DNA from: Paraglaciecola marina
Lineage (GTDB): Bacteria > Pseudomonadota > Gammaproteobacteria > Enterobacterales > Alteromonadaceae
Reading direction: 5' to 3'
NCBI RefSeq assembly: GCF_004360155.1
Contig: NZ_ML178720.1
Coordinates: 91,078-155,077 of the forward strand
Length of the DNA: 64,000 bases
The position numbers and the translations under genes are program-made. Shown one piece after another: positions 5,971 to 18,139 of the stretch; positions within the stretch are counted from its first letter, which is position 1; each line of letters starts with the position of its first letter. The notes below the pieces were generated by a model. That model was given only the letters and a program-made list of their open reading frames with translations, searched no databases and was not told where the DNA came from.

Positions 5971-6384
5971 TTAATCTTGAGACTCTTTCCAAGCAGCCAG
6001 TTTTTCTTCACTATGCTTTTGAATATATTGGTGCTTATTACTCACCCACCACTTTTCCATGATACGAACATTTTTTTCATTACTTCTATAAAACAAGTCA
6101 AAAATATCTCCTAAAAAAGGAATAAGGCCGAGTAAAAAATCAATCACTATATTTTTTAGCATGCTAAAAATCAAAGATTTAGGGACTCCCATTTTTACAG
6201 CCAAACGAACAATCACTAAAGAAACGCAAGCCATAATGACATCCCCTACAAAAGGAATCAGACCAATAATAAAATCTAATCCAAGCCTAATACCAATCCC
6301 AGGAATACGGATTTTGTTATCGCTTAAGTTAGCCAACGTCTGTGCTTTTAAAAGCTCCTTGGGCGCCCTATAGTTATCATTCAT
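5971..6384 (-). CDS. DUF4112 membrane protein
   Basis: A 137-residue protein with two hydrophobic segments. It shows the repeated pattern L(D/L)xxIGLIPFVGD / FLLGLIPFLGD characteristic of DUF4112. The function is unknown. I chose the ATG at 6384, which lies 2 bases after the stop of the upstream DUF819 gene and indicates co-translation. A frame extending 13 residues further (to 6423) lies inside that gene. The tandem IPFxGD loops suggest an internal duplication of a helix-loop unit. Confidence 0.78.
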   Translation of the reverse strand: MNDNYRAPKELLKAQTLANLSDNKIRIPGIGIRLGLDFIIGLIPFVGDVIMACVSLVIVRLAVKMGVPKSLIFSMLKNIVIDFLLGLIPFLGDIFDLFYRSNEKNVRIMEKWWVSNKHQYIQKHSEEKLAAWKESQD

Positions 6385-6386
6385 AG

Positions 6387-7661
6387 TTATCCAATACTTT
6401 GTAATATTTGGCCGCAAAACCAAGCCATATATGTGCCTACTGTATAACCCAACACTGCCAACATTACCGCGACGGGAGCTAACGAAGGATGAAATGCCGA
6501 TGCAACAATAGGTGCAGATGCTGCCCCACCTACGTTTGCTTGACTACCCACAGCCATATAAAACAGTGGCGCTTTAATTAGCTTAGCTACACCTAACATC
6601 AACGCAGCATGGATCACCATCCAAATTGCTCCAATTATGAAGAATAAAGGCTCTTCTATAATCATAGTGACGTCCATTTTCATACCAATGGTTGCAATTA
6701 ATATATACAAGAATACCGAGCCTAATTTGGATGCGCCTACACTTTCTAACTTTCTAGCTTTTGTAAAAGATAATGCTATACCTATCGTACTTGAAAAAAT
6801 AATCATCCAGAAAAATTTACTATGGAAACTAAATTTACCCATATTTGGAAAGTGTTCAACAAAATACGGGGTAACATTGTCGGCAAAAAGATGAGCCGCC
6901 CCCGTCACGCCAAAGGCCACAGCAACAATTAGCATTAAATCTGCCACAGTAGGGATTTTAGAATGTTTTGCTTCAAAGCTACTTACTTTTTCTTTAAGCT
7001 CGTCGATTGCAGAGGTATCAGCACCGGTTTTTGCATCAATAGCTTTAGCATTGGCAGCCATTACTAGCAGTACTGCCATCCATAAATTAGCCACTATTAT
7101 GTCTACGGTAACCATGGCAGAAAACATTTGGTCACCAGCACCATAAATTTCTTTCATAGCGGCTTGGTTAGCACTACCGCCAATCCAACTACCCGCTACC
7201 GTTGTCATTCCCCGCCATACAGCTTCCGGACCATCAACACCCACTAACTCTGGAACGAATGTAGCAACAACTATTAATGCGATAGGGCCACCAATGACGA
7301 TCCCTAATGTGCCAGTAAGAAATAATATAATAGCCTTACTACCCAATCGAGAAATAGCTTTAAGATCAACACTTAGGGTTAGTAAAACCAAACAAGCAGG
7401 TAATAGATAGCGGGACGCCACGTAATAAAGTTGCGATTTTTCGCCATCAACGAAACCAAGGGTATTCAATAAAGAAGGTAAGAAATAACACAGCAGCACA
7501 GAGGGAACAAACATATAAAACTTTCGCCAGAATGGAGCTTCACTACTAGCAGTATAAAAAACTAAACCTAGTAGAATCGCCAAAATCCCCATTATGGTAG
7601 CGTCGTTTGTAAATAATGGACTATGAAGTACAGCTTGATCTGTAAGTACGGGTGTCGACAT
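6387..7661 (-). CDS. DUF819-family integral membrane protein (putative transporter)
   Basis: A 424-residue polytopic membrane protein with about 10-12 hydrophobic segments and a hydrophilic loop near the middle (ELKEKVSSFEAKHSKIP). The GSWIGGSANQAAMKE and VGSQANVGGAASAP motifs are the two conserved Gly/Ala-rich re-entrant-like stretches of the DUF819 family. The duplicated pattern is reminiscent of Na+-coupled carriers. The start at 7661 is preceded by AGGA at proper spacing; the longer frame to 7703 has no such site. It is followed at once by the DUF4112 gene. The substrate is unknown. Confidence 0.8.
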   Translation of the reverse strand: MSTPVLTDQAVLHSPLFTNDATIMGILAILLGLVFYTASSEAPFWRKFYMFVPSVLLCYFLPSLLNTLGFVDGEKSQLYYVASRYLLPACLVLLTLSVDLKAISRLGSKAIILFLTGTLGIVIGGPIALIVVATFVPELVGVDGPEAVWRGMTTVAGSWIGGSANQAAMKEIYGAGDQMFSAMVTVDIIVANLWMAVLLVMAANAKAIDAKTGADTSAIDELKEKVSSFEAKHSKIPTVADLMLIVAVAFGVTGAAHLFADNVTPYFVEHFPNMGKFSFHSKFFWMIIFSSTIGIALSFTKARKLESVGASKLGSVFLYILIATIGMKMDVTMIIEEPLFFIIGAIWMVIHAALMLGVAKLIKAPLFYMAVGSQANVGGAASAPIVASAFHPSLAPVAVMLAVLGYTVGTYMAWFCGQILQSIG

Positions 7662-7827
7662 AAATGATTCCTGTTGTGCTATTGCGCTGTTCCTGAAAAC
7701 CAACGCAACTTTTTTAATTATTATTTTTGGTTGTAACCACTATATAGCGGTAACTAATGCAAACCTTATATTAACACAAGCCTAGTAAGGGTGATCGAAT
7801 GGGTTACAACTGTTAGAAGAATAGAGG

Positions 7828-8907
7828 TTACTCTGCCCCCATTGCCTTTGACAGCTCGCTTCTTTTTTGGGTGTCTTCTGGAGTAGATAACCAACCTTTA
7901 AGATTTTTAATTAACATATTAGTCAAAGCTTCAATATGTTGCGTATCGGCATTTAATGCTGCTATGTATTCGTATCTCTCACCACCAGCCTCTATGAAAT
8001 ACTCTTTATTTTCTTCTCCAATTTCTTCAATAGTCTCTAAACAATCAGCTGAAAAACCAGGGCAAACAAGTTGCACTGACTTAACTCCTTGTTGAGGAAA
8101 AGCTTTAAGTGACTCATCCGTATAAGGCGTTAACCATTCCTCTCGGCCAAAACGAGATTGAAAGCTAGTAAAATGCTCATTCTTACTTAAACCTAAGTTT
8201 TCAGCTATTAGGCGAGAGGTTTTATGGCACTCACAATGATAAGGATCTCCCTTCAGTAAATATCTTTTAGGAATGCCGTGATAACTAAAAATCAGTTTGT
8301 CTGCCTTGCCGTTAACTTTCCAATGCTCACGTATTTTATTGGATACCGCTTTTATATATTCAGGGTTGTCATGATAATGAGTCATAAACCTTAACTCTGG
8401 CATCCAACGCTTTTTCATAAAACTTTGCGCTATAGCATCAAAGGTAGAAGCTGTGGTTGATGCACAATACTGTGGATACAAAGGTAAAACTAGTAGCTTT
8501 CTTACCCCTTGTTGCAGCATTTTATCTACCACTGAGTCAATTGATGGTGAGCCGTAACGCATAGCAAACTCAACCACAACATGCTCGCCATATTCAGAGA
8601 CTAATTTTTCTCTAATAGCATTTGCTTGATCTTGTGTATGGAACATTAGCGGCGACCCTCGCTCAGTCCACACTCCTGCATAGGCCTTAGCTGAACGACT
8701 TGGTCGGATATTTAAGATGACCAAATTCAATATCATCCACCAAATAAGTTTGGGCACCTCTACAACTCGCGGGTCAGATAAAAACTCTTTGAGGTAGCGT
8801 CTAAGCTCTGCTTTTTTAGGGGCATCTGGGGTACCTAAATTAGTAACTAACACACCCACTCTATCTAATTGGCTATGATTAAATGCAGGATTACCTTGAT
8901 ATTTCAT
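7828..8907 (-). CDS. hemH: Ferrochelatase
   Basis: A 359-residue enzyme inserting Fe2+ into protoporphyrin IX, the last step of heme synthesis. Signatures are LVTNLGTPDAP at the N-terminus, the metal-binding His in FSYHGIPKRY, the QSRFGREEWL block and the catalytic Glu in DCLETIEEIGEEN. CECHKT resembles a Cys-containing stretch found in many bacterial ferrochelatases. The start is supported by GAGAG about 8 bases upstream. It is divergent from the GTPase cluster, with a 248-base shared upstream region that contains a palindrome at 8929-8946. Confidence 0.96.
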   Translation of the reverse strand: MKYQGNPAFNHSQLDRVGVLVTNLGTPDAPKKAELRRYLKEFLSDPRVVEVPKLIWWMILNLVILNIRPSRSAKAYAGVWTERGSPLMFHTQDQANAIREKLVSEYGEHVVVEFAMRYGSPSIDSVVDKMLQQGVRKLLVLPLYPQYCASTTASTFDAIAQSFMKKRWMPELRFMTHYHDNPEYIKAVSNKIREHWKVNGKADKLIFSYHGIPKRYLLKGDPYHCECHKTSRLIAENLGLSKNEHFTSFQSRFGREEWLTPYTDESLKAFPQQGVKSVQLVCPGFSADCLETIEEIGEENKEYFIEAGGERYEYIAALNADTQHIEALTNMLIKNLKGWLSTPEDTQKRSELSKAMGAE

Positions 8908-9155: not shown

Positions 9156-9686
9156 ATGGCAAATAAAAAAAGTAATGAAGATAACCAATCAAATCCGGTG
9201 TCTGAATTAGATAGCCTTAGAAATATAGTATTCGGCGCGGCAAAAAGTGAGATTGAGCAACGGATTTCTGCTTTAGAGCAACAAACACTAGATAGCTTTA
9301 AAAAAATGGAGCTGTTAATAGAGAAGAATGCAAAATCTTTACATGCAAGTATGCAAGATGGCTTTAATCAATTAGAAGACAAACTTGCCTTAGCTGACCA
9401 AGGACAGGAACAAAAATCAGCAGAGCTTAATGCATATGCAGACAAAATTTCCTCAGAGTTAGAAATGGCTGAAACTAGCAGCAAACAAGAAACTGACGAG
9501 TTACATAAACGAATCGACACTGAAGTAAATGAGCTTACTATTAAGTTCAACCATCAACTTGAAGAAGCACTAGCTAAACTGACACAGGTATCTTCAGAGT
9601 TAAATTCGACTAAAACAGACCGTAAAACTTTAGCTAAACTACTCGCTACTGTTGCTTCTAACCTTGAAACTGGCGACGAAGAGTAG
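9156..9686 (+). CDS. Coiled-coil protein, first gene of a GTPase/OmpA/EAL cluster
   Basis: A 176-residue acidic, mostly helical protein without signal peptide or membrane segment. From about residue 30 to 165 it is rich in Glu, Lys, Gln and Leu in heptad-like spacing, which predicts a long coiled coil. Residues 21-27 (LRNIVFG) match residues 20-26 of the next protein (LRDIVLG), so the two share a short N-terminal motif. A GGGGG-type ribosome-binding site precedes the ATG, and the next gene begins 8 bases after the stop. I do not recognise a named family. A structural or scaffolding partner of the membrane protein encoded next is the natural inference. Confidence 0.8.
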   Translation: MANKKSNEDNQSNPVSELDSLRNIVFGAAKSEIEQRISALEQQTLDSFKKMELLIEKNAKSLHASMQDGFNQLEDKLALADQGQEQKSAELNAYADKISSELEMAETSSKQETDELHKRIDTEVNELTIKFNHQLEEALAKLTQVSSELNSTKTDRKTLAKLLATVASNLETGDEE

Positions 9687-9694
9687 CCAAAGTA

Positions 9695-11485
9695 ATGCTA
9701 GAAAATAACCAAGGGGCATCTAAACAATCTAGCGATCAACAAATGCAAGAATTGCGTGACATAGTGTTAGGTGATGATGGCCAGTATGTTACTGAAAAAA
9801 TTAAAGAAAATGCTAGGTTAATGGTGAGTGAAGTTTTATCTGAAGCATTACACGACCGAGAAAAACAAGACGGTTCAGTTAATACGGTACTACTCCCCCT
9901 TGTTGAAAAGTCCGTTGAAACATCAATTACCAATCATAGCCAACAATTTGTAGGGTATTTATATCCCTTAGTAGGTAGCTTAGTTCGCAAATCCGTCACA
10001 GCATTCATTACCGAGTTTCTCGAAAAAACCAATACTTTGTTAGAGAACAGTTTTACGGTTAAAGGTCTCAAATGGCGCTTTAAAGCTTGGCAAGCGGGAA
10101 TTAGCTTTTCCCAGTATGCAGCCAGCCAAACCTTTGCATTCAGAGTAGAGCAGGTATTTTTAATACATAGTGAAACGGGGTTACTTCTAAACTCTGTATC
10201 TTATGGCTTAGACACGGGTACAGATCCTGACTTAATGTCCTCAATGTTAACCGCAATAAATGATTTTGTTTCAGACTCTTTCAAGCCTAATCAGAGCCCC
10301 AGTGAACAGCACTTAAATGTAATACGTACCAGTGACTTTTCTTTATTGATAAAACCAGGGCCCAAAGCCGTTGTAGTGGCCTCTATTACAGGAAATATGC
10401 CCCAAGGTGTGGCTAATCAACTACAACAAACATTAGAAGAAATTCACAGGCTTTATGATCAAGAGTTAACAAATTTTAATGGCGATACTGTGCCCTTTGA
10501 GCATACACAAAATCAATTACGAAACTGTTTAATCTCAGAGTTAAAACCAGAACACCAAGATAAAAAGAAAAAGCCTTGGTTCGCTTGGATTCTGGTGAGT
10601 ATGTTTTTTATTGGGTTTGGATACCTTGGTATCAAACAATGGCAAGCCCATAAGTTATTAGAAAAAGTAGAGCAACTAGACAACGAACCAGGTATTTTAA
10701 TTACTGACATCTCTACGCTTGGCTTAAACAAGGTCCAGTTAAATGTACTAAGAGACCCTGCTGCACAACCTATTAGCGAATGGTTACAACAGCAGAGTAT
10801 TGAACAACAAAATATACGGCTCAAAGAACGAGCTTATTTATCCCTTGAACCCCGCTTAATGCAACTGAAAGTAAAGGGTGTTTTAAAACAATTCCCTAAC
10901 ATTCAAGTAGATTGGTCTTTGGGGTATCCTCAGTTTACTGGCCAAACAAGCATCAGTGAACAGCTTCGGTTAAAAGCAGAACTAACAACTATCACTGGGC
11001 TTAACCTTCAAAGCAATTGGATGAATACCTTATCTATAGAGGACTCTGCAACAGACCCTCTAGACGACCCACAGCTACTAAAAGAGATTTTGGATATAAA
11101 AGTTGCTGAAATAAATAGGCTACACGTTACCTTTGGCAATGGAGAAAGTGAATTATCCAGCAATGCCGCACACGTGCTAACATCAGTAGCACAACAATTC
11201 AAAGATCTTGAGTCATTAACTGAGCGGTTACGCTTGTCCATCAGCCTTATCATAATGGGAACCAGCGATATGTCTGGCGACCATGACTATAATAAAATAC
11301 TGAGTCAAGTGCGGGCGGATAATGTAAAGTCTAAATTACAACAACTAGGAATTGACGAAAAGCGCTTAAATGCAATAGGATTGGGCGTAATAGATTTAAA
11401 CACTACACAAAAAGACGCCAGGATGGTCTTGTTAAATGTGGTATATTTTAATACAGCCAAACCCATCATAAATAACTTCGAGTAG
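9695..11485 (+). CDS. Inner-membrane protein with roadblock-like cytoplasmic region and periplasmic OmpA-like domain
   Basis: A 596-residue protein. Residues 20-26 carry LRDIVLG, and residues 60-145 are helical (PLVEKSVETSI, YPLVGSLVRKSV, WRFKAWQAG). Residues 147-260 follow the pattern of a roadblock/LC7 (longin-like) domain: VEQVFLIHSETGLLL, then DPDLMSSMLTAINDFV, then a second sheet and a helix. A single membrane span lies at about 295-313 after a KKKK stop-transfer cluster. The C-terminal 120 residues resemble OmpA/MotB: a LHVTFGNG strand, GTSDMSG in place of GHTD, and the conserved Arg in SQVRADNV, so peptidoglycan binding is likely. Similar proteins with the LIHxETGLLL and MLTAIxDFVxDSF blocks are known to me from cyanobacteria and other groups. 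Linkage to the GTPase gene suggests it is the GTPase's regulator or anchor. Confidence 0.8.
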   Translation: MLENNQGASKQSSDQQMQELRDIVLGDDGQYVTEKIKENARLMVSEVLSEALHDREKQDGSVNTVLLPLVEKSVETSITNHSQQFVGYLYPLVGSLVRKSVTAFITEFLEKTNTLLENSFTVKGLKWRFKAWQAGISFSQYAASQTFAFRVEQVFLIHSETGLLLNSVSYGLDTGTDPDLMSSMLTAINDFVSDSFKPNQSPSEQHLNVIRTSDFSLLIKPGPKAVVVASITGNMPQGVANQLQQTLEEIHRLYDQELTNFNGDTVPFEHTQNQLRNCLISELKPEHQDKKKKPWFAWILVSMFFIGFGYLGIKQWQAHKLLEKVEQLDNEPGILITDISTLGLNKVQLNVLRDPAAQPISEWLQQQSIEQQNIRLKERAYLSLEPRLMQLKVKGVLKQFPNIQVDWSLGYPQFTGQTSISEQLRLKAELTTITGLNLQSNWMNTLSIEDSATDPLDDPQLLKEILDIKVAEINRLHVTFGNGESELSSNAAHVLTSVAQQFKDLESLTERLRLSISLIIMGTSDMSGDHDYNKILSQVRADNVKSKLQQLGIDEKRLNAIGLGVIDLNTTQKDARMVLLNVVYFNTAKPIINNFE

Positions 11486-11526
11486 ATAATGAGAAGCACA
11501 CGCGGTATAGAGGTTCTAGTAACACC

Positions 11527-12018
11527 ATGATGCAAAAAAAAGTATGCTTACTTGGTGCATCTGGAGTAGGGAAAACCAGTCTAATAAAACAGTATGTCGA
11601 AGGTATTTTCTCTGAAAAATATCTTACATCTATTGGTGTTAAGATTGATAAAAAACAAGTAGAAACTAAATCAGGTCAAGTCAAGTTGATGATTTGGGAC
11701 ATAGAAGGTATTGATCGGTATTGCGGTTTTCAACCTAAATATCTGAGAGGCGCCTCCGCCTATATTATAGTCTCCGACCAAACTCGCTCCCAGTCTTTGC
11801 TTGAAGGCGTTGAAATTCAAAAAATGATAAAAGAAGTAACAGATATTCCCGGGTTACTAGCCATTAATAAATCTGACCTACCAGAAGCTTGGCATTGGAG
11901 TCAAAAAGAACTTGAAGACATCCAAAGTGGATACGAGAAGACATTCCATACCAGTGCAAAAACTGGGGAAAATGTAGAAAACATGTTCACCCACCTAGCT
12001 CAAATAATTGCAGAGTAA
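11527..12018 (+). CDS. Rab/Ras-like small GTPase
   Basis: A 163-residue single-domain GTPase. It has G1 GASGVGKT (residues 10-17), switch I YLTSIGVKI (Rab-like, with Ser35 directly before IG where Thr is usual), G3 WDIEGI (57-62), G4 NKSD (114-117) and G5 TSAK (142-145). The residue equivalent to Ras Gln61 is Ile62, which predicts weak intrinsic hydrolysis and dependence on a partner. There is no C-terminal Cys for lipidation and no membrane segment, so it is cytosolic or recruited by a partner. Prokaryotic Ras-like GTPases such as MglA work with roadblock proteins; here the preceding gene encodes a roadblock-like region. The start ATG-ATG is ambiguous by one codon. Confidence 0.92.
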   Translation: MMQKKVCLLGASGVGKTSLIKQYVEGIFSEKYLTSIGVKIDKKQVETKSGQVKLMIWDIEGIDRYCGFQPKYLRGASAYIIVSDQTRSQSLLEGVEIQKMIKEVTDIPGLLAINKSDLPEAWHWSQKELEDIQSGYEKTFHTSAKTGENVENMFTHLAQIIAE

Positions 12019-12026
12019 AATTAAGC

Positions 12027-14174
12027 ATGGATGCATCACTTCTCAAAACACTAGGCTTATTGGATTGTATTATTATTCAACGGGTGAACACTAATGAATT
12101 TGAAGTGTTATATATGTCCAATAATTGGGCAACTGAGTTATTACCTGAGGCAGTTGGGATATTTACCTTTAGTGAAGATTCATCCCCCTATCTTTTAGAT
12201 TTTTTGATTGATGCTAAAAACTTATGGAACTCTGAAAAAGACGGAAAAATTGATTCTGGTATCTGGTCAGAACAACTCCCCAGCCAGTTAATTAGGCTGG
12301 AAGCTACCGCTTTTTATAAAAATAAAAATCAATTTCTGCAAATAAATAAAATAGATACTAGCTACGAAGAAAAGCAAAAAACTCTACAAATAGCTCGAGA
12401 GTTGATGTTTTCTGCAGACAAAATATCCGAACAACATGAATATTTACATGCAAAAATGGATGAGCTACTCAGTGGGCCCACTCAAACATTCTTTTTAAAA
12501 CAACAGATATCTCAAGCCCTAGAACAAACAGACTTAGGGGTGGCTATACTTACTCCTGAATTACAAATAGTGAATAGTAACCCAGCTTTAAAAGCATTGT
12601 TCACCGACTCGAACATAAAAATAAATATCCCCGAAGACAGGCTAGTAATCGAGCTATTTAGAACCCAATACCCAGAATGTGAACGAATTTTTTCAACTGG
12701 AAGCACTTGGAGTGGAGAGCTTTATTGGTTAAATCCACCTAGACATGGAAAATGGTTAAAGATGACCATACATCCAATAATGTCCGCAAATCAGGTAATA
12801 CAATATTGGATATTGAGCGTAAGTGACATTACGCAAATTAAGTTTTTACTAAAACGCAATGAAAAATTAGTTCACTTTGACGCGGTTACCGACTTACCAA
12901 ATCGACAGTTTTTTTGGAAAAAACTTGAAGAAAAAGTCAATCAAAGTTTGCCTTTTTGTTTACTGTATTGTGATATAAAAAACTTTAAACGAATTAATGA
13001 GCTATATGGTCATCAAATTGGTGATCAAGCCATTAAGGAGCTAGCGAGTCGGCTCAACTCAATCACTCAAGGAGATGATTTATTAGCTAGAATTGGGGGC
13101 ACAGAATTCGCTGTAATAATGAATTTGAAAGAAGGTAGCCCTAGTCAATCTATTAAATATCAAGAACAATGCTCTAAGTTTGCTGAAGAATTAATTAACT
13201 CATGTCGTATTCCATTCTACCCAGCACCAGGGCAAAAATGTGAGATTGGACTAAATGTAGGAGCCGCTGTTTTTCCGTTAGACTCCAGTAATGCCGAAGA
13301 ACTCATGAAATATGCAGATTTAGCAGTATATTCTGCCAAAAAGCAAAAAAGTCAAAGTAGTATCCAGTTCTACTCAAAACAACTCATAGAAGCTTCACGT
13401 AAACGCATAGAAATGGAAGATGCATTGCGAGTCGCGATTAAAAACCAAGAATTTGAAATATTTTTACAACCTATCTTAGATTTATCTACTAATAAAATTG
13501 TAAAAGCAGAAGCGTTAATCCGCTGGCGCCAAAAAGGACACGCACTAGTTTCACCTGAAGAGTTTATTCCTCTAGCCGAACAAACAGGGCTAATCATTCC
13601 AATTGGTAAGTGGGTTATCAGCGAAGCTTTTAGGCTACTAGCTCAACTTAACAAGCAAGGAGAATCAATTTCTATTGCAATAAACTTATCTCCTCGCCAA
13701 ATAAGTGATCGCCAATTATTTGAGTTCATTCAAAGTAACGTAGATGAGTATAAAATCAATGCGCAAAAAGTTGAATTCGAACTAACCGAAGGGGTACTTA
13801 TTGACAATTATGAGAAAGTGCACCTGCTTCTCGAGCAGATACATGAATTAGGCATGAAGGTATCCATTGATGATTTTGGCACTGGATATAGCTCTCTGTC
13901 GTATTTACAAAAATTGCGTATTGACCACCTCAAAATAGACCGAGCCTTCATTAAAGAGCTAACTGAATCTAGCAAGGAAGGGGATTTTGCTTTAATTCTA
14001 GCGATTATCTCTATGGCAAAAAGCTTAAATCTTGGAGTCATTGCAGAAGGGGTAGAAACTCAAGTTCAGCGTAATTTCTTAGTCACAAACAATTGCAATG
14101 TTGCACAAGGTTATCTATTTAGCCCCCCTCTACCTTTTATTGATTTTTGCCAACTACTAAAAGGTAATAGTTAG
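12027..14174 (+). CDS. PAS-GGDEF-EAL protein, probable c-di-GMP phosphodiesterase
   Basis: A 715-residue cytosolic protein. An N-terminal PAS-like sensor (about 1-110) is followed by a helical linker, a second PAS domain (about 160-280), a GGDEF domain (about 285-450) and an EAL domain (about 455-710). The GGDEF active-site motif reads GGTEF, so the metal/catalytic acidic residue is replaced and cyclase activity is unlikely. The EAL domain looks complete: AEALIRW, INLSPRQ, ELTEGVLI, IDDFGTGYSSL, LKIDRAF, AEGVET and QGYLFSPPL. It should therefore hydrolyse cyclic di-GMP. It starts 8 bases after the GTPase stop and appears to be the output of the cluster. It ends 12 bases before the convergent DUF1304 gene. 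Confidence 0.93.
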   Translation: MDASLLKTLGLLDCIIIQRVNTNEFEVLYMSNNWATELLPEAVGIFTFSEDSSPYLLDFLIDAKNLWNSEKDGKIDSGIWSEQLPSQLIRLEATAFYKNKNQFLQINKIDTSYEEKQKTLQIARELMFSADKISEQHEYLHAKMDELLSGPTQTFFLKQQISQALEQTDLGVAILTPELQIVNSNPALKALFTDSNIKINIPEDRLVIELFRTQYPECERIFSTGSTWSGELYWLNPPRHGKWLKMTIHPIMSANQVIQYWILSVSDITQIKFLLKRNEKLVHFDAVTDLPNRQFFWKKLEEKVNQSLPFCLLYCDIKNFKRINELYGHQIGDQAIKELASRLNSITQGDDLLARIGGTEFAVIMNLKEGSPSQSIKYQEQCSKFAEELINSCRIPFYPAPGQKCEIGLNVGAAVFPLDSSNAEELMKYADLAVYSAKKQKSQSSIQFYSKQLIEASRKRIEMEDALRVAIKNQEFEIFLQPILDLSTNKIVKAEALIRWRQKGHALVSPEEFIPLAEQTGLIIPIGKWVISEAFRLLAQLNKQGESISIAINLSPRQISDRQLFEFIQSNVDEYKINAQKVEFELTEGVLIDNYEKVHLLLEQIHELGMKVSIDDFGTGYSSLSYLQKLRIDHLKIDRAFIKELTESSKEGDFALILAIISMAKSLNLGVIAEGVETQVQRNFLVTNNCNVAQGYLFSPPLPFIDFCQLLKGNS

Positions 14175-14186
14175 CTTAAACAAACC

Positions 14187-14573
14187 CTAGGAAAACAAAC
14201 GTTGTTCACCGGCTCTGCGCCTTTTACTTTTAATGACGAGTAACAAGGTGATAAATGCAGGTAATGCTTGAATATATAAAATACTTGTTTTAGCAGTAAG
14301 TCCACCGAAGATTCCAGCAATCACAATACACATTAATAAAAAAACTTTTAAAGTTTGATTACCCGTTATTAATCCTAACAGCAATCCCAGCCCTAAAAAG
14401 CCATTATACAAACCTTGGTTCATAGCTAATACTTCTGAGGACTTAGCAACTTCTTCGGTCATTGAAAATATCTTGTGACCTATTGGATGATCCCAAAAAA
14501 ACATTTCTAACACTAAAAAACCAAAATGTAGAGCGGCAACAAGAAACGTCATAAAACCAGCTAAGAACTTCAT
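14187..14573 (-). CDS. DUF1304 membrane protein
   Basis: A 128-residue protein with four hydrophobic segments. It carries the DUF1304 hallmarks: an H near the first helix, LEMFFWDHPIG, and the NQGLYNGFLGLGLLLG block. Its biochemical role is unknown. It ends in a basic tail (KSKRRRAGEQR), which suggests a cytosolic C-terminus. It is convergent with the GGDEF-EAL gene, 12 bases away, and is unlikely to be functionally tied to that cluster. Confidence 0.85.
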   Translation of the reverse strand: MKFLAGFMTFLVAALHFGFLVLEMFFWDHPIGHKIFSMTEEVAKSSEVLAMNQGLYNGFLGLGLLLGLITGNQTLKVFLLMCIVIAGIFGGLTAKTSILYIQALPAFITLLLVIKSKRRRAGEQRLFS

Positions 14574-14682
14574 TCGACAAACCTATGATTATTTTTATTG
14601 TGGAATTTATAGTGTGGGAATTTATATGAAGTTGCAAGAATAGCACTCAATACAAAGACAAAAATGCTGTTTAACAGGAAAT

Positions 14683-14708
14683 AAAAAAGCGCCTTTCGGC
14701 GCTTTTTT
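14683..14708. terminator. Bidirectional Rho-independent terminator after hflC
   Basis: AAAAAAGCGCC-TTTC-GGCGCTTTTTT: a stem of GC pairs extended by A/T pairs, with a GAAA tetraloop when read on the minus strand and six T after the stem. It lies 15 bases after the hflC stop and ends the long minus-strand hfq-hflX-hflK-hflC series. Confidence 0.93.
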
Positions 14709-14722
14709 AATATTAGGGTTAA

Positions 14723-15604
14723 CTATTTACCCATCTGACCTTTCATATATCTGAAGAAGTCACTATCAGGTTCAACCACTAACACGTCTTGTTTACTACT
14801 AAAGCTTTTCTTGTATGCATCCATACTACGTAAAAAGCTGTAAAATTCGGGATCTTTAGTATAAGTCTCTGCATAAATTTGCGCAGCTTGGGCATCACCC
14901 TCACCTTTCAACTTACGTAAGTTACGCTCCGCATCAGCTAACATAACCGTTACTTTAGCATCGATGTCAGCTTTGATAAATTCAGCCTTCTCTTTACCTT
15001 CAGATCTATGTTCTCTTGCAACCGCTTCACGCTCGGTACGCATACGTTGGAATATAAAGTTACGTACTTCAGTAGGCAAGTTAATTTGCTTAACTCGAAC
15101 ATCCACAATCTCTATACCTAGCTCATCAGAGCTAGAAGAAGCCTGTTCCATTGCTTCGTCCATCAATTCTGAACGCTCACCTGAAACAATTTGTTGAATA
15201 GTTCGTGTACCAAACTCAGAACGTAAACCGTTATTTACTTTCTGTTGTAATAACACCTCGGCATTACCTTTGATGCCACCAGTGGCTAAATAGTAAGTAG
15301 CAAAATCTTTAATTTTCCACTTCACGTATAAATTAACGATTAAGTCTTTTTTCTCTGCCGTTACAAAACGATCTGGCGCTTCGTCTAATGTTTGTATGCG
15401 AGAATCTAACTTAACCACTCTATCAAAGAATGGTAGTTTGAAATGTAACCCCGGCTCAAAGACAACTGTGTCTCCAGTGTCATTATCTCGTTGCACTTTC
15501 CCAAACTGAATAACAATTGCTTTGGTGCCTTCATCTACAACAAAAAGTGAACCAGACGCAAGTAGAGCTAAGACGACAACAATTACTCCAATAAAATTCT
15601 TCAT
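14723..15604 (-). CDS. hflC: FtsH regulator HflC
   Basis: A 293-residue SPFH/band-7 protein with one N-terminal membrane anchor (about residues 4-22). The SPFH domain begins at VDEGTKAIVIQFGKV, with the periplasmic helical region RTEREAVAREHRSEGKEKAE downstream. With HflK it forms the large periplasm-facing cage around the FtsH protease in the inner membrane and modulates its activity. The gene starts 3 bases after the hflK stop, so the pair is co-translated. The terminator just downstream marks it as the last gene of the block. Confidence 0.96.
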   Translation of the reverse strand: MKNFIGVIVVVLALLASGSLFVVDEGTKAIVIQFGKVQRDNDTGDTVVFEPGLHFKLPFFDRVVKLDSRIQTLDEAPDRFVTAEKKDLIVNLYVKWKIKDFATYYLATGGIKGNAEVLLQQKVNNGLRSEFGTRTIQQIVSGERSELMDEAMEQASSSSDELGIEIVDVRVKQINLPTEVRNFIFQRMRTEREAVAREHRSEGKEKAEFIKADIDAKVTVMLADAERNLRKLKGEGDAQAAQIYAETYTKDPEFYSFLRSMDAYKKSFSSKQDVLVVEPDSDFFRYMKGQMGK

Positions 15605-15607
15605 AGC

Positions 15608-16765
15608 TTAGTTTCTCCCACTACGTAGGCCATTACCACGAGTGGTTCTGGTGTTACTTGATACTGGCTGGCTACTATCATCTTGATTTTGTAAACCTTC
15701 TAATGTACTCCGGATATTAGCTGGAATACTTGGGCCAGACTGACGCTCTAGTATTTTATCTAAGGGTAAATACATCATATTGCCTGTACCTTGGGTATCC
15801 ACCAAAATCTTACTCGTATTACTGTAAACTTCTTCTAACGTCTCTATATATATCCGGCTACGGGTAACTTCAGGCGCCGCTGTGTATTGGGGAAGTAACT
15901 CTTCAAAGCGAGCTATTTCACCTTGCGCTTCTAAGGTTACACGTTCTTTATATGCCTGTGCTTCTTGTGCCATACGGTTTACTTGACCACGAGCACGGGG
16001 CTCTATTTCACGAGAGTAGGCTTCTGCTTCATTAATAAAGCGTTGTTCATCTTCCTGAGCTGCAATTGCATCATCAAACGCTTCTTTCACTTCTTCAGGC
16101 GGTCTAGCGTCTTTAAAGTTTAAGTCAACGATAGTAATTCCCATATCGTATGACTCAATAATACCTATTAGCTCATCACGCACACTCTGCCTTGCGCCTT
16201 CACGACCAGCAGTCAAAACACTATCCATCTTAGAATGCCCGACAACATACCGAATTGCACTGTCAAATGCCTGACTAAGACTTTCTTCAGGGCTAGTTAC
16301 AGCAAAGGTATATTTATAAGGTTCTAAAATTTTGTATTGTACTTCCATTTCAACACGGACTACGTTTTCGTCTTCGGTCAACATAGAGCCAGATGAAGGC
16401 ATAGAGCGCACGGTTTGCACATCTACTGGAATAACCCTATCTACAAAAGTAGGTTTCCATTGAAGTCCAGGCTCAACAAATTTATTAAATTCACCAAAAC
16501 GAAGAACCACGCCACGCTCAGCTTCTCGAATCGTATAAAATCCACTAAACACGTAAACCACGACTAAAATACCGAGTATAACTGCCAGACCGATCCCGCC
16601 TAAGCCTTTGCCGCCAGTGGAGCCACCTTTGCCACCGCCACCAAACTTACTAAATTTACCCATTAAATTTTTAAATACCTCATCTAAATCAGGTGGACCT
16701 TGATCACGGCCACCCTTATTTTTCCAAGGATCATTATTGTTACCACCGGGCTCATTCCAAGCCAT
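15608..16765 (-). CDS. hflK: FtsH regulator HflK
   Basis: A 385-residue SPFH protein with the typical Gly/Asn/Asp-rich cytosolic N-terminus (MAWNEPGGNN, then GGGGKGG), a membrane span at about 57-76 and the band-7 domain (REAERGVVLRFGEF). A long helical region follows, rich in AQEAQAYKERV-type repeats. It ends in a Ser/Thr/Arg-rich tail. It partners HflC in the HflKC-FtsH complex. It lies about 85 bases downstream of hflX. Confidence 0.96.
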   Translation of the reverse strand: MAWNEPGGNNNDPWKNKGGRDQGPPDLDEVFKNLMGKFSKFGGGGKGGSTGGKGLGGIGLAVILGILVVVYVFSGFYTIREAERGVVLRFGEFNKFVEPGLQWKPTFVDRVIPVDVQTVRSMPSSGSMLTEDENVVRVEMEVQYKILEPYKYTFAVTSPEESLSQAFDSAIRYVVGHSKMDSVLTAGREGARQSVRDELIGIIESYDMGITIVDLNFKDARPPEEVKEAFDDAIAAQEDEQRFINEAEAYSREIEPRARGQVNRMAQEAQAYKERVTLEAQGEIARFEELLPQYTAAPEVTRSRIYIETLEEVYSNTSKILVDTQGTGNMMYLPLDKILERQSGPSIPANIRSTLEGLQNQDDSSQPVSSNTRTTRGNGLRSGRN

Positions 16766-16849
16766 TATTATTCTCCAGCTAGTTAATTCAAAATAGGCTA
16801 AACCTATTTACAATACGTAATTCTTAATTTTTTGATCTGTATCTAGTTT

Positions 16850-18139
16850 TTAATACTGCACTATATACGATTCTAAATCTGTATCCACTCGCTTAATTAA
16901 TCTTTGCCAATCACTTTTTTCCATTCTAACATCAACTTGCCAGTCTCCGTTTTCAGCGTAGCTTTGTGAGGCAATACAATTCATATCAAAAAACACCCCA
17001 CGTAAATTACTTTTAGACGGAGGAATGCGCAAACTATGTTGCACCATATTTTTCGACAAACACTCTGTTATCGCATCATTTAACAAATCTATACCAATGC
17101 CTTGCTGGGCTGATATCCAGACACGAATGGGCATACCCGTATCGTCTCTATCTATCTTGGCACTTACACCATCCATTCGATCTATCTTGTTGCACACCAC
17201 AAGTTGTTGAATCTCGTGGGCATCGATCTCCTCTAACACATCATTTACCTCATCTATATTTTCACGAAACTGATCATCAGAATAATCAACCACGTGCAAC
17301 AAAAGGTCTGCCTGCTGTGTTTCTTGAAGTGTCGCTTTAAAAGCTGCAATTAGATCATGGGGGAGATGTCGTATAAAACCAACCGTATCAGCAAGAATTG
17401 CAGATCCTACATCTTGTAACTGAATTTTTCTAAGGGTCGGATCTAGTGTTGCAAATAGCTGGTCAGCTGCATATACAGAGGCTTCGGTGACCGTATTAAA
17501 CAAGGTCGACTTTCCTGCGTTGGTATACCCTACTAGAGACACTGTTGGTATTTCTGCACGCACCCTAGAGCGTCTACCTTGCTCTCGTTGCTTTTGTACC
17601 TTTTCCAGTCGACGTAAAATGGCTTTTATTCTAGCCCTCAACAAACGCCTGTCTGTTTCAAGCTGAGTTTCACCTGGCCCACGAAGACCAATACCACCTT
17701 TTTGTCTTTCAAGGTGCGTCCAGCCTCTAATTAATCTGGTACTAATATGCCGTAGTTGTGCAAGCTCAACTTGCAATTTACCCTCATGAGTTCTAGCACG
17801 TTGTGCAAATATATCTAATATCAAACCGGTACGGTCCAATACTCTACATTTGCACAACTGTTCTAGGTTACGCTCTTGGGAAGGGGACAAAGAATGGTTA
17901 AAAATAACAATATCAGCTTGCTGTGCACGCACAGCATTAGCTATTTCCTCGGCTTTACCGCTGCCAACAAAATAACGAGCTTGTGGAGCTTGGCGCGAGC
18001 CTGTCACCACATCAATTGCATTTACACCTGCAGAAGATACAAGGAGCTGAAGCTCTAATAAATCTTCTTTGCTATTTTCATCTGAAAAATCAACATGTAC
18101 TAAAACTGCCTGTTCACCAGTTTCATAACGGTCAAACAA
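16850..18139 (-). CDS. hflX: Ribosome-associated GTPase HflX
   Basis: A 429-residue protein with an N-terminal HflX domain (GSGKAEEIA, NHSLSPSQERNLE, then the IGLRGPGETQLETDRR hallmark) followed by a TRAFAC GTPase domain. The GTPase motifs are G1 VGYTNAGKSTLFN, G3 DTVGFIRHLP, G4 NKID and G5 SAQQG. HflX splits stalled or heat-damaged 70S ribosomes. The gene lies 17 bases downstream of hfq, the conserved gammaproteobacterial order. Confidence 0.97.
   Translation of the reverse strand: MFDRYETGEQAVLVHVDFSDENSKEDLLELQLLVSSAGVNAIDVVTGSRQAPQARYFVGSGKAEEIANAVRAQQADIVIFNHSLSPSQERNLEQLCKCRVLDRTGLILDIFAQRARTHEGKLQVELAQLRHISTRLIRGWTHLERQKGGIGLRGPGETQLETDRRLLRARIKAILRRLEKVQKQREQGRRSRVRAEIPTVSLVGYTNAGKSTLFNTVTEASVYAADQLFATLDPTLRKIQLQDVGSAILADTVGFIRHLPHDLIAAFKATLQETQQADLLLHVVDYSDDQFRENIDEVNDVLEEIDAHEIQQLVVCNKIDRMDGVSAKIDRDDTGMPIRVWISAQQGIGIDLLNDAITECLSKNMVQHSLRIPPSKSNLRGVFFDMNCIASQSYAENGDWQVDVRMEKSDWQRLIKRVDTDLESYIVQY

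Follow-up and report, generated by a model that had tools for sequence, protein, structure and literature searches.

A Rup Group 1 GTPase operon of Paraglaciecola marina with a putative roadblock-like envelope partner and a glutamine-bearing output domain

Background

Does the four-gene GTPase operon of Paraglaciecola marina belong to a known signalling system, and how might its parts fit together? The operon lies at positions 9156-14174 of a 64,000-nucleotide stretch of contig NZ_ML178720.1, which we call the window. Its four open reading frames (ORFs) are all on the plus strand, with intergenic gaps of 8, 41 and 8 nt. They encode a coiled-coil protein, a membrane protein with an OmpA domain, a Rab-like GTPase and an output protein (Table 1). 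A sequence-only reading had reported this layout, and the ORF coordinates agree with it. It had also known of no described system of such composition, a view that has to be given up. Group 1 of the Rup GTPases, as described by Wuichet & Søgaard-Andersen in 2014 in their passages on the group, has the same composition, which rules out an undescribed system (PMC4316618).

In those passages the Group 1 GTPases have no catalytic Gln in G3. Next to them are genes for a predicted coiled-coil protein, an output protein and a DUF protein, the last often with a membrane helix followed by an OmpA domain. The output protein, typically a histidine kinase or a fusion of diguanylate cyclase and phosphodiesterase, carries an invariant N-terminal Gln. 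The authors speculated that this Gln completes the active site in trans, and they state that experimental characterisation was lacking for every Rup member (PMC4316618). In the open-licence literature we found no report of experiments on a Rup system. The Group 1 GTPases are described as very similar to eukaryotic Rab, Ran, Ras and Rho, or as the closest prokaryotic group to them (PMC4316618, PMC4915359).

The window shares the coiled-coil protein, the DUF protein with membrane and OmpA parts, the GTPase without the G3 Gln and the output protein with the N-terminal Gln. It is a further member of the published Group 1, an assignment that rests on the GTPase motifs, the neighbouring genes and the Gln of the output protein, and anything new is new at the level of the family. 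The main text of the 2014 paper leaves the DUF unassigned, and the terms longin, adenylate cyclase, HD-GYP and sigma-54 are absent from it. Its passages on the system mention neither a fusion of the GTPase to the N-terminal domain of the output protein (here the Q-domain) nor a motif common to both partner proteins (PMC4316618). What we add to that main text is a roadblock-like assignment, such a motif, the range of outputs found behind one domain, and such a fusion. Our overall reading, which we hold to be probable, is a Group 1 Rup signalling operon whose sequences suggest how its parts fit.

Results and discussion

Conservation of the operon

We compared 134 loci, made up of the window, 13 loci from a search for relatives and 120 fetched stretches. 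The narrow loci L001, L015-L094 and L175-L179 were left out and in part replaced by wider stretches. Several matches lie outside the set, such as 7 of the 40 GTPase matches from family genomes. At 90% identity the 134 GTPases fall into 126 clusters. The loci span the window's phylum, the phyla of a Saprospiraceae and a Nitrospira metagenome-assembled genome (MAG), and one archaeal record.

The order coiled-coil, OmpA, GTPase, output on one strand is found in 108 of the 134 loci when the fourth gene is recognised by profile or by position. This implies that the set is not a chance neighbourhood. It also bears out the view that the neighbourhood is conserved well outside close relatives. By profile alone all four families are present in 73 loci, and the coiled-coil profile matches 116 ORFs of the set. 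Among the remaining loci the coiled-coil match is missing in 7 and the output in 5, while 6 have the GTPase only and 1 has mixed strands. Some of the missing genes fall at contig ends.

Of 147 family genomes, 40 have the GTPase (E <= 1e-12), and exactly these 40 also have the roadblock-like domain of the OmpA protein (E <= 1e-6). The Q-domain is found in 39 of these and in none of the 107 others.

A GTPase without its catalytic glutamine

The window GTPase is a single domain with Ras-like G motifs, and the best 60 Protein Data Bank (PDB) matches listed are all Rab-type GTPases. The sequence-only reading had counted five G motifs. G1, G3, G4 and G5 can be read in the sequence, and that reading passed over Ile62, which stands in G3 where the catalytic Gln would be. 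This Gln is kept in only 1 of the 134 GTPases, the archaeal record L014, which has no partner genes. The archaeal genome in question (G1038) has 20 matches to this GTPase and 13 to Robl_LC7. One idea was that GTPases without a neighbouring Q-domain keep their own Gln. The G3 motifs of the 134 GTPases rule this out.

One domain and many outputs

The output protein of the window is a predicted c-di-GMP (cyclic di-GMP) phosphodiesterase. Pfam recognises GGDEF (E 3.2e-34) and EAL (E 2.1e-69), as the sequence-only reading had it. Its PAS domain is less secure, as PAS_9 matches residues 171-270 weakly (E 5.3e-4) and under the Pfam cut-off. The protein has EAL, DDFGTG and EGVET motifs, with GGTEF in place of GGDEF, so the output in the window should be c-di-GMP hydrolysis; its GGTEF domain probably lacks cyclase activity. 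Forty EAL-labelled relatives with the Q-domain profile have GGDEF (18), GGNEF (6), GGTEF (5), GGAEF (1) or no matched motif (10). Cyclase activity therefore does not look conserved.

The Q-domain is the first ~145 residues of this protein. We dropped the search for a known fold. The only PDB match has E 1.4 and is not a convincing relative, and the Pfam matches are scattered, sub-threshold and never in more than 2 of 57 members. In the 121 loci with an OmpA protein, the fourth gene was identified by its Q-domain in 74 and as another same-strand gene of more than 250 aa in 42; 5 had none. We considered whether loci without a match to the first Q-domain profile lack the fourth component. This was rejected, as most of them have a diverged N-terminal domain with an aligned Gln. 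The two classes of fourth protein align with P 3.3e-5 and a probability of 72%.

In the joint alignment, Gln occupies the column of window Gln121 in 114 of 116 fourth proteins (73/74 in the first class and 41/42 in the second). Two proteins depart from this: the ORF picked for L196 looks spurious, and L205 has a QLMRE whose register is shifted. A profile alignment of 81 hits has Gln121 in 81/81 and Arg124 in 80/80. The joint alignment has Arg at 124 in 69/74 of the first class and mostly Asn (30/42) in the second, so the Arg is not universal. We take Gln121 to be the invariant Gln in figure 4 of the 2014 paper (PMC4316618).

What follows the Q-domain varies. Pattern-based labels sort the 116 fourth proteins into 40 EAL proteins, 20 class III cyclases, 19 sigma-54 activators, 16 histidine kinases and 7 HD-GYP proteins; in 3 the Q-domain stands alone or is joined to the GTPase, and 11 have no label. 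These frequencies reflect the sampling of loci. Pfam confirms ten chosen outputs, namely two histidine kinases, four HD-GYP proteins (HD_5), two cyclases and two sigma-54 activators. A quick GTPase tree without support values has at least 9 output changes across 105 labelled tips, and the minimum for six states is 5. The Q-domain is the constant part of the output protein and the enzymatic part is swapped. The EAL phosphodiesterase is part of the module in the window, as had been claimed, and elsewhere its slot holds a histidine kinase, a class III cyclase, a sigma-54 activator or an HD-GYP protein.

The GTPase and the Q-domain can also be a single protein. Two loci from the phylum of the Nitrospira MAG, L215 (genome G1278) and L216 (G1223), have both in one ORF of 365 or 337 aa. 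In L205 (G1284) the GTPase and an adjoining Q-domain protein of 164 aa are two genes. Each of these three genomes has a second GTPase match elsewhere. In L181 and L183 two genes come after the GTPase, the first for a protein of 307 aa and the second for a Q-domain protein, and the stretch has neither an OmpA nor a coiled-coil gene. By eye the 307-aa protein is like the other class of fourth protein.

Does the Q-domain supply the missing glutamine?

We argue that direct binding between the GTPase and the Q-domain is very likely, judging from the conservation and fusions above. What the Gln does is less clear. A residue that is lost in the GTPase and near-invariant in the Q-domain suggests that the active site is completed in trans. 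Rab GTPase-activating proteins (GAPs) work with an Arg/Gln double finger, and the additional Arg124 of the first Q-domain class recalls it. A trans-acting Gln would make the output protein a GAP as well as an effector. We propose this tentatively, as somewhat short of an even chance.

One can also picture a Q-domain that only binds the GTPase as an effector. Its Gln would then be structural, in a signalling helix that passes on the state of the GTPase, and the GAP would be elsewhere, for example in the roadblock-like domain. MglB, a roadblock protein, is the GAP of MglA, and this operon has a roadblock-like domain of its own. Gln121 sits at the C-terminal end of the Q-domain, which leads into the next domain, and may be structural. 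Locus L107 (genome G129), the exception among the 40 family genomes, has the coiled-coil, OmpA and GTPase genes and no output gene, and its GTPase still has no Gln. These points count against a trans-acting Gln, as do the fusion proteins, in which the Arg124 position is not Arg and the register near the Gln is ambiguous. Against the effector-only scenario is the pattern of conservation. The Gln is near-invariant across very different outputs while most of its neighbours vary, and the GTPase has lost its own. This is not decisive, and we give the effector-only scenario nearly an even chance.

The OmpA protein and its cytoplasmic domain

The OmpA protein was claimed to have one membrane span and an OmpA-like domain, and both hold. 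The span is a transmembrane-like stretch at residues 295-316. An OmpA domain is found in 98 of 120 ORFs of the OmpA family and a transmembrane-like stretch in 101 of 120. Asp525 and Arg540 of this domain in the window are at the positions through which relatives bind peptidoglycan. The roadblock-like protein of two loci (L013, 4756-5598; L184, 4485-5336) is only ~280 aa long and has no transmembrane-like stretch or OmpA domain. Some relatives may therefore do without the cell-wall anchor.

The sequence-only reading had also placed a roadblock-like stretch in the cytoplasmic part. This has moderate profile support, and we think that residues 143-271 very probably adopt a roadblock/longin fold. 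Alignment A4 (85/112 sequences; A1 has 112/118 and A5 57/79) has by eye the order strand-strand-helix-strands-helix, as expected for roadblock proteins. Its profile was compared with 177,635 distinct PDB sequences and gave four matches up to E 10. The best is a roadblock/LC7 protein (9jue_D, E 0.065) and the second is the TRAPP subunit BET5 (7ea3_D, E 0.41), which has a longin-type fold. The other two are proteins under different names. The longer alignment A1 again has this roadblock protein first (E 0.41), with BET5 fourth of five. Profile-profile comparison by hhalign of the A4 domain with 28 diverse roadblocks (2 of 30 ORFs were omitted as longer than 300 aa) scores 24.2 with P 0.0011 and is collinear across the domain. 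In 100 column shuffles the mean was 10.3 (standard deviation 1.9) and the maximum 17.0, and the reversed profile scored 9.1. The non-MglB roadblocks alone give P 2.6e-4 and a probability of 42%, versus P 0.03 for the MglB part. MglB against the other roadblocks, the positive control, scores 75.8.

Several results count against this assignment. The best PDB match is weak, and the hhalign probability against the 28 roadblocks is just 20% despite the P value. Comparisons with an MglB-rich set (18) and a short-roadblock set (8) are not significant, and with these narrow sets the reversed decoys score about equal or higher; of the sets compared, only the broader one of 28 yields a clear score. There is no roadblock Pfam family in the window protein, nor among the 25 listed of the 141 Pfam families that match 112 relatives, so an assignment through Pfam was dropped. 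Fuz_longin_1 has a sub-threshold match in two of the 112 (best E 0.032). More generally, neither the cytoplasmic part of this protein nor the coiled-coil protein has a family above the cut-off in Pfam, and NCBIfam agrees.

Ranking experiments are similarly mixed. When the roadblock-like profile is run against 2985 ORFs, 38 of them roadblocks, the area under the curve (AUC) is 0.855 and roadblocks stand at ranks 2, 3 and 5; the top-ranked ORF is a coiled-coil-family protein. Control profiles on the same ranking reach AUC 0.73 (coiled-coil), 0.68 (GTPase) and 0.61 (Q-domain). In the other direction a roadblock profile, run against 3127 ORFs of which 180 belong to the OmpA family, reaches AUC 0.811, and OmpA-family ORFs fill the first four places. 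The coiled-coil control profile does better there (AUC 0.875). Composition or the motif shared by the coiled-coil and OmpA proteins therefore accounts for part of the ranking, and the controls are a further point against the assignment.

The domain could instead have another alpha/beta fold, with the weak matches reflecting a common strand-helix pattern. The lack of a Pfam match, the narrow-set comparisons, the low hhalign probability and the imperfect ranking controls would all fit. Such a pattern does not readily explain why the two best of the four PDB matches are a roadblock and a longin protein, or why the collinear score is so far above the highest of 100 shuffles. We consider another fold unlikely.

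The partner in the window does not match Robl_LC7, the MglB-type family: Robl_LC7 is not among the families listed for it or among the 25 listed of 141 for the 112 relatives, the window genome itself not having been searched for Robl_LC7. Nor was Robl_LC7 found in 3/3 searched genomes of the Nitrospira group that have the system.

A motif shared by the two partner proteins

The coiled coil of the 176-aa protein was judged by eye. This protein and the OmpA protein have in common an N-terminal motif, φ-R/K-x-φ-φ-φ-G. The strict pattern is found in 108/114 coiled-coil and 55/114 OmpA proteins, compared with 3/800 control ORFs and 0/134 GTPases. With a matrix built from the coiled-coil proteins only, 73 of 119 OmpA proteins exceed the 99th percentile of the 800 controls and 52 exceed the control maximum. 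The OmpA copy in the window scores 8.6, which is above that percentile (5.6) and below the maximum (9.8). Many of the 46 OmpA proteins under the percentile have a related segment (LRTLLLAPEQ etc.) and some do not. We read the φRxφφφG motif as a candidate docking or assembly element common to both proteins.

A possible mechanism

The sequences support a GTPase module that is anchored in the envelope and has a predicted c-di-GMP phosphodiesterase as its output, as first proposed. The first proposal also had the roadblock-like region recruit or regulate the GTPase, which may or may not hold, as may its suggested role in polarity, motility or biofilm control. We suggest the following scheme. The OmpA domain would anchor the inner-membrane protein to the cell wall. 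On the cytoplasmic side, the coiled-coil protein would join the roadblock-like domain in an envelope platform, which would hold or load the GTPase in response to the state of the cell wall. The GTPase would shuttle between this platform and the output protein. GTP-bound Rup would bind the Q-domain and alter the output, which in the window is c-di-GMP breakdown by EAL. If the Gln of the Q-domain completes the active site in trans, then the output protein would also end the signal. We infer the contacts, the GAP role and the signal. That the cell wall controls the switch seems to us evenly balanced. The 7 of 134 loci that have a GTPase and an output gene without the other two nearby weigh against such a scheme.

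The scheme may extend to the family. Group 1 Rup would then be a general GTPase relay, in which a wall-tied roadblock-like domain sets the GTPase, a Gln-bearing domain docks it, and the outputs act as GAPs. The interchangeable outputs would be c-di-GMP, cyclic nucleotide, phosphorelay and sigma-54 transcription. We offer this relay as a possible reading that is rather doubtful as a whole. It is very unlikely that the genes are a plain co-transcribed set with an ordinary EAL phosphodiesterase that never contacts the GTPase: the 2014 statement that no Rup member was experimentally characterised leaves room for it (PMC4316618), but the matching presence across 147 genomes, the exchange of outputs after a single constant domain, and the GTPase-Q-domain fusions, speak against it.

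Relation to MglA/MglB and the conservon

Like MglA/MglB, the operon pairs a bacterial Ras-like GTPase with a roadblock-fold protein, here roadblock-like by sequence. It differs in that a membrane and cell-wall anchor is part of the same protein as the roadblock-like domain, whose sequence is distant from MglB. Moreover, Rup is a separate family that, according to the passages of the 2014 paper on it, is not predicted to act with MglB homologues (PMC4316618).

The authors of that paper liken Group 1 Rup to the actinobacterial conservon. The conservon as they present it relies on an MglA-type GTPase and on a histidine kinase in the membrane (PMC4316618), whereas here the OmpA protein is the anchor and the output is variable. 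Both are sets of four genes: CvnA-D also combines a small GTPase, a roadblock protein, a third protein and a signalling protein at the membrane.

The operon in its genome

The closest named relatives found are from Paraglaciecola, and the best GTPase identity is 77%. The related Pfam profile Roc has a single match in the genome of the window, which is the GTPase of the operon. Promoter and terminator scans gave sites no commoner than in shuffles. The next downstream ORF (14187-14573) is on the opposite strand. Both flanks (5971-8907 and 14187-18139) are entirely on the minus strand and ordinary by Pfam, with DUF4112, DUF819, ferrochelatase, DUF1304, two Band_7 proteins (one with HflK_N) and an HflX-type GTPase.

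Table 1. Positions in the window of the operon's genes, domains and motifs
Feature	Positions	Strand	Basis
Coiled-coil protein, 176 aa	9156..9686	+	ORF
Shared motif LRNIVFG, coiled-coil protein	9216..9236	+	strict pattern
Roadblock-like/transmembrane/OmpA protein, 596 aa	9695..11485	+	ORF; OmpA Pfam match
Shared motif LRDIVLG, OmpA protein	9752..9772	+	coiled-coil-derived matrix
Putative roadblock/longin-like domain, residues 143-271	10121..10507	+	PDB profile matches, hhalign; no Pfam match
Predicted transmembrane stretch, residues 295-316	10577..10642	+	hydrophobicity and position
OmpA domain, residues 479-573	11129..11413	+	Pfam OmpA E 1.3e-9
Rab-like (Rup Group 1) GTPase, 163 aa	11527..12018	+	Pfam Ras E 6.7e-29
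G3 motif DIEGID without catalytic Gln	11698..11715	+	motif inspection
Output protein, 715 aa: Q-domain, weak PAS, GGDEF (GGTEF), EAL	12027..14174	+	Pfam, motifs
Q-domain, conserved N-terminal domain of fourth proteins	12042..12458	+	alignments
QIARE motif with Gln121 and Arg124	12387..12401	+	joint alignment
Degenerate GGDEF motif (GGTEF)	13095..13109	+	motif search
EAL motif	13509..13517	+	Pfam, motif search

Conclusions

If the relay reading is true, it would put Rup in the same GTPase-plus-roadblock plan as MglA/MglB. The operon also suggests that bacterial GTPases pair with roadblock proteins beyond the MglA family. The roadblock-like partner, the shared motif and the Gln-bearing domain turn an unassigned function into testable biochemistry. 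They raise the questions of whether the output protein supplies the Gln and whether the cell-wall anchor controls the switch.

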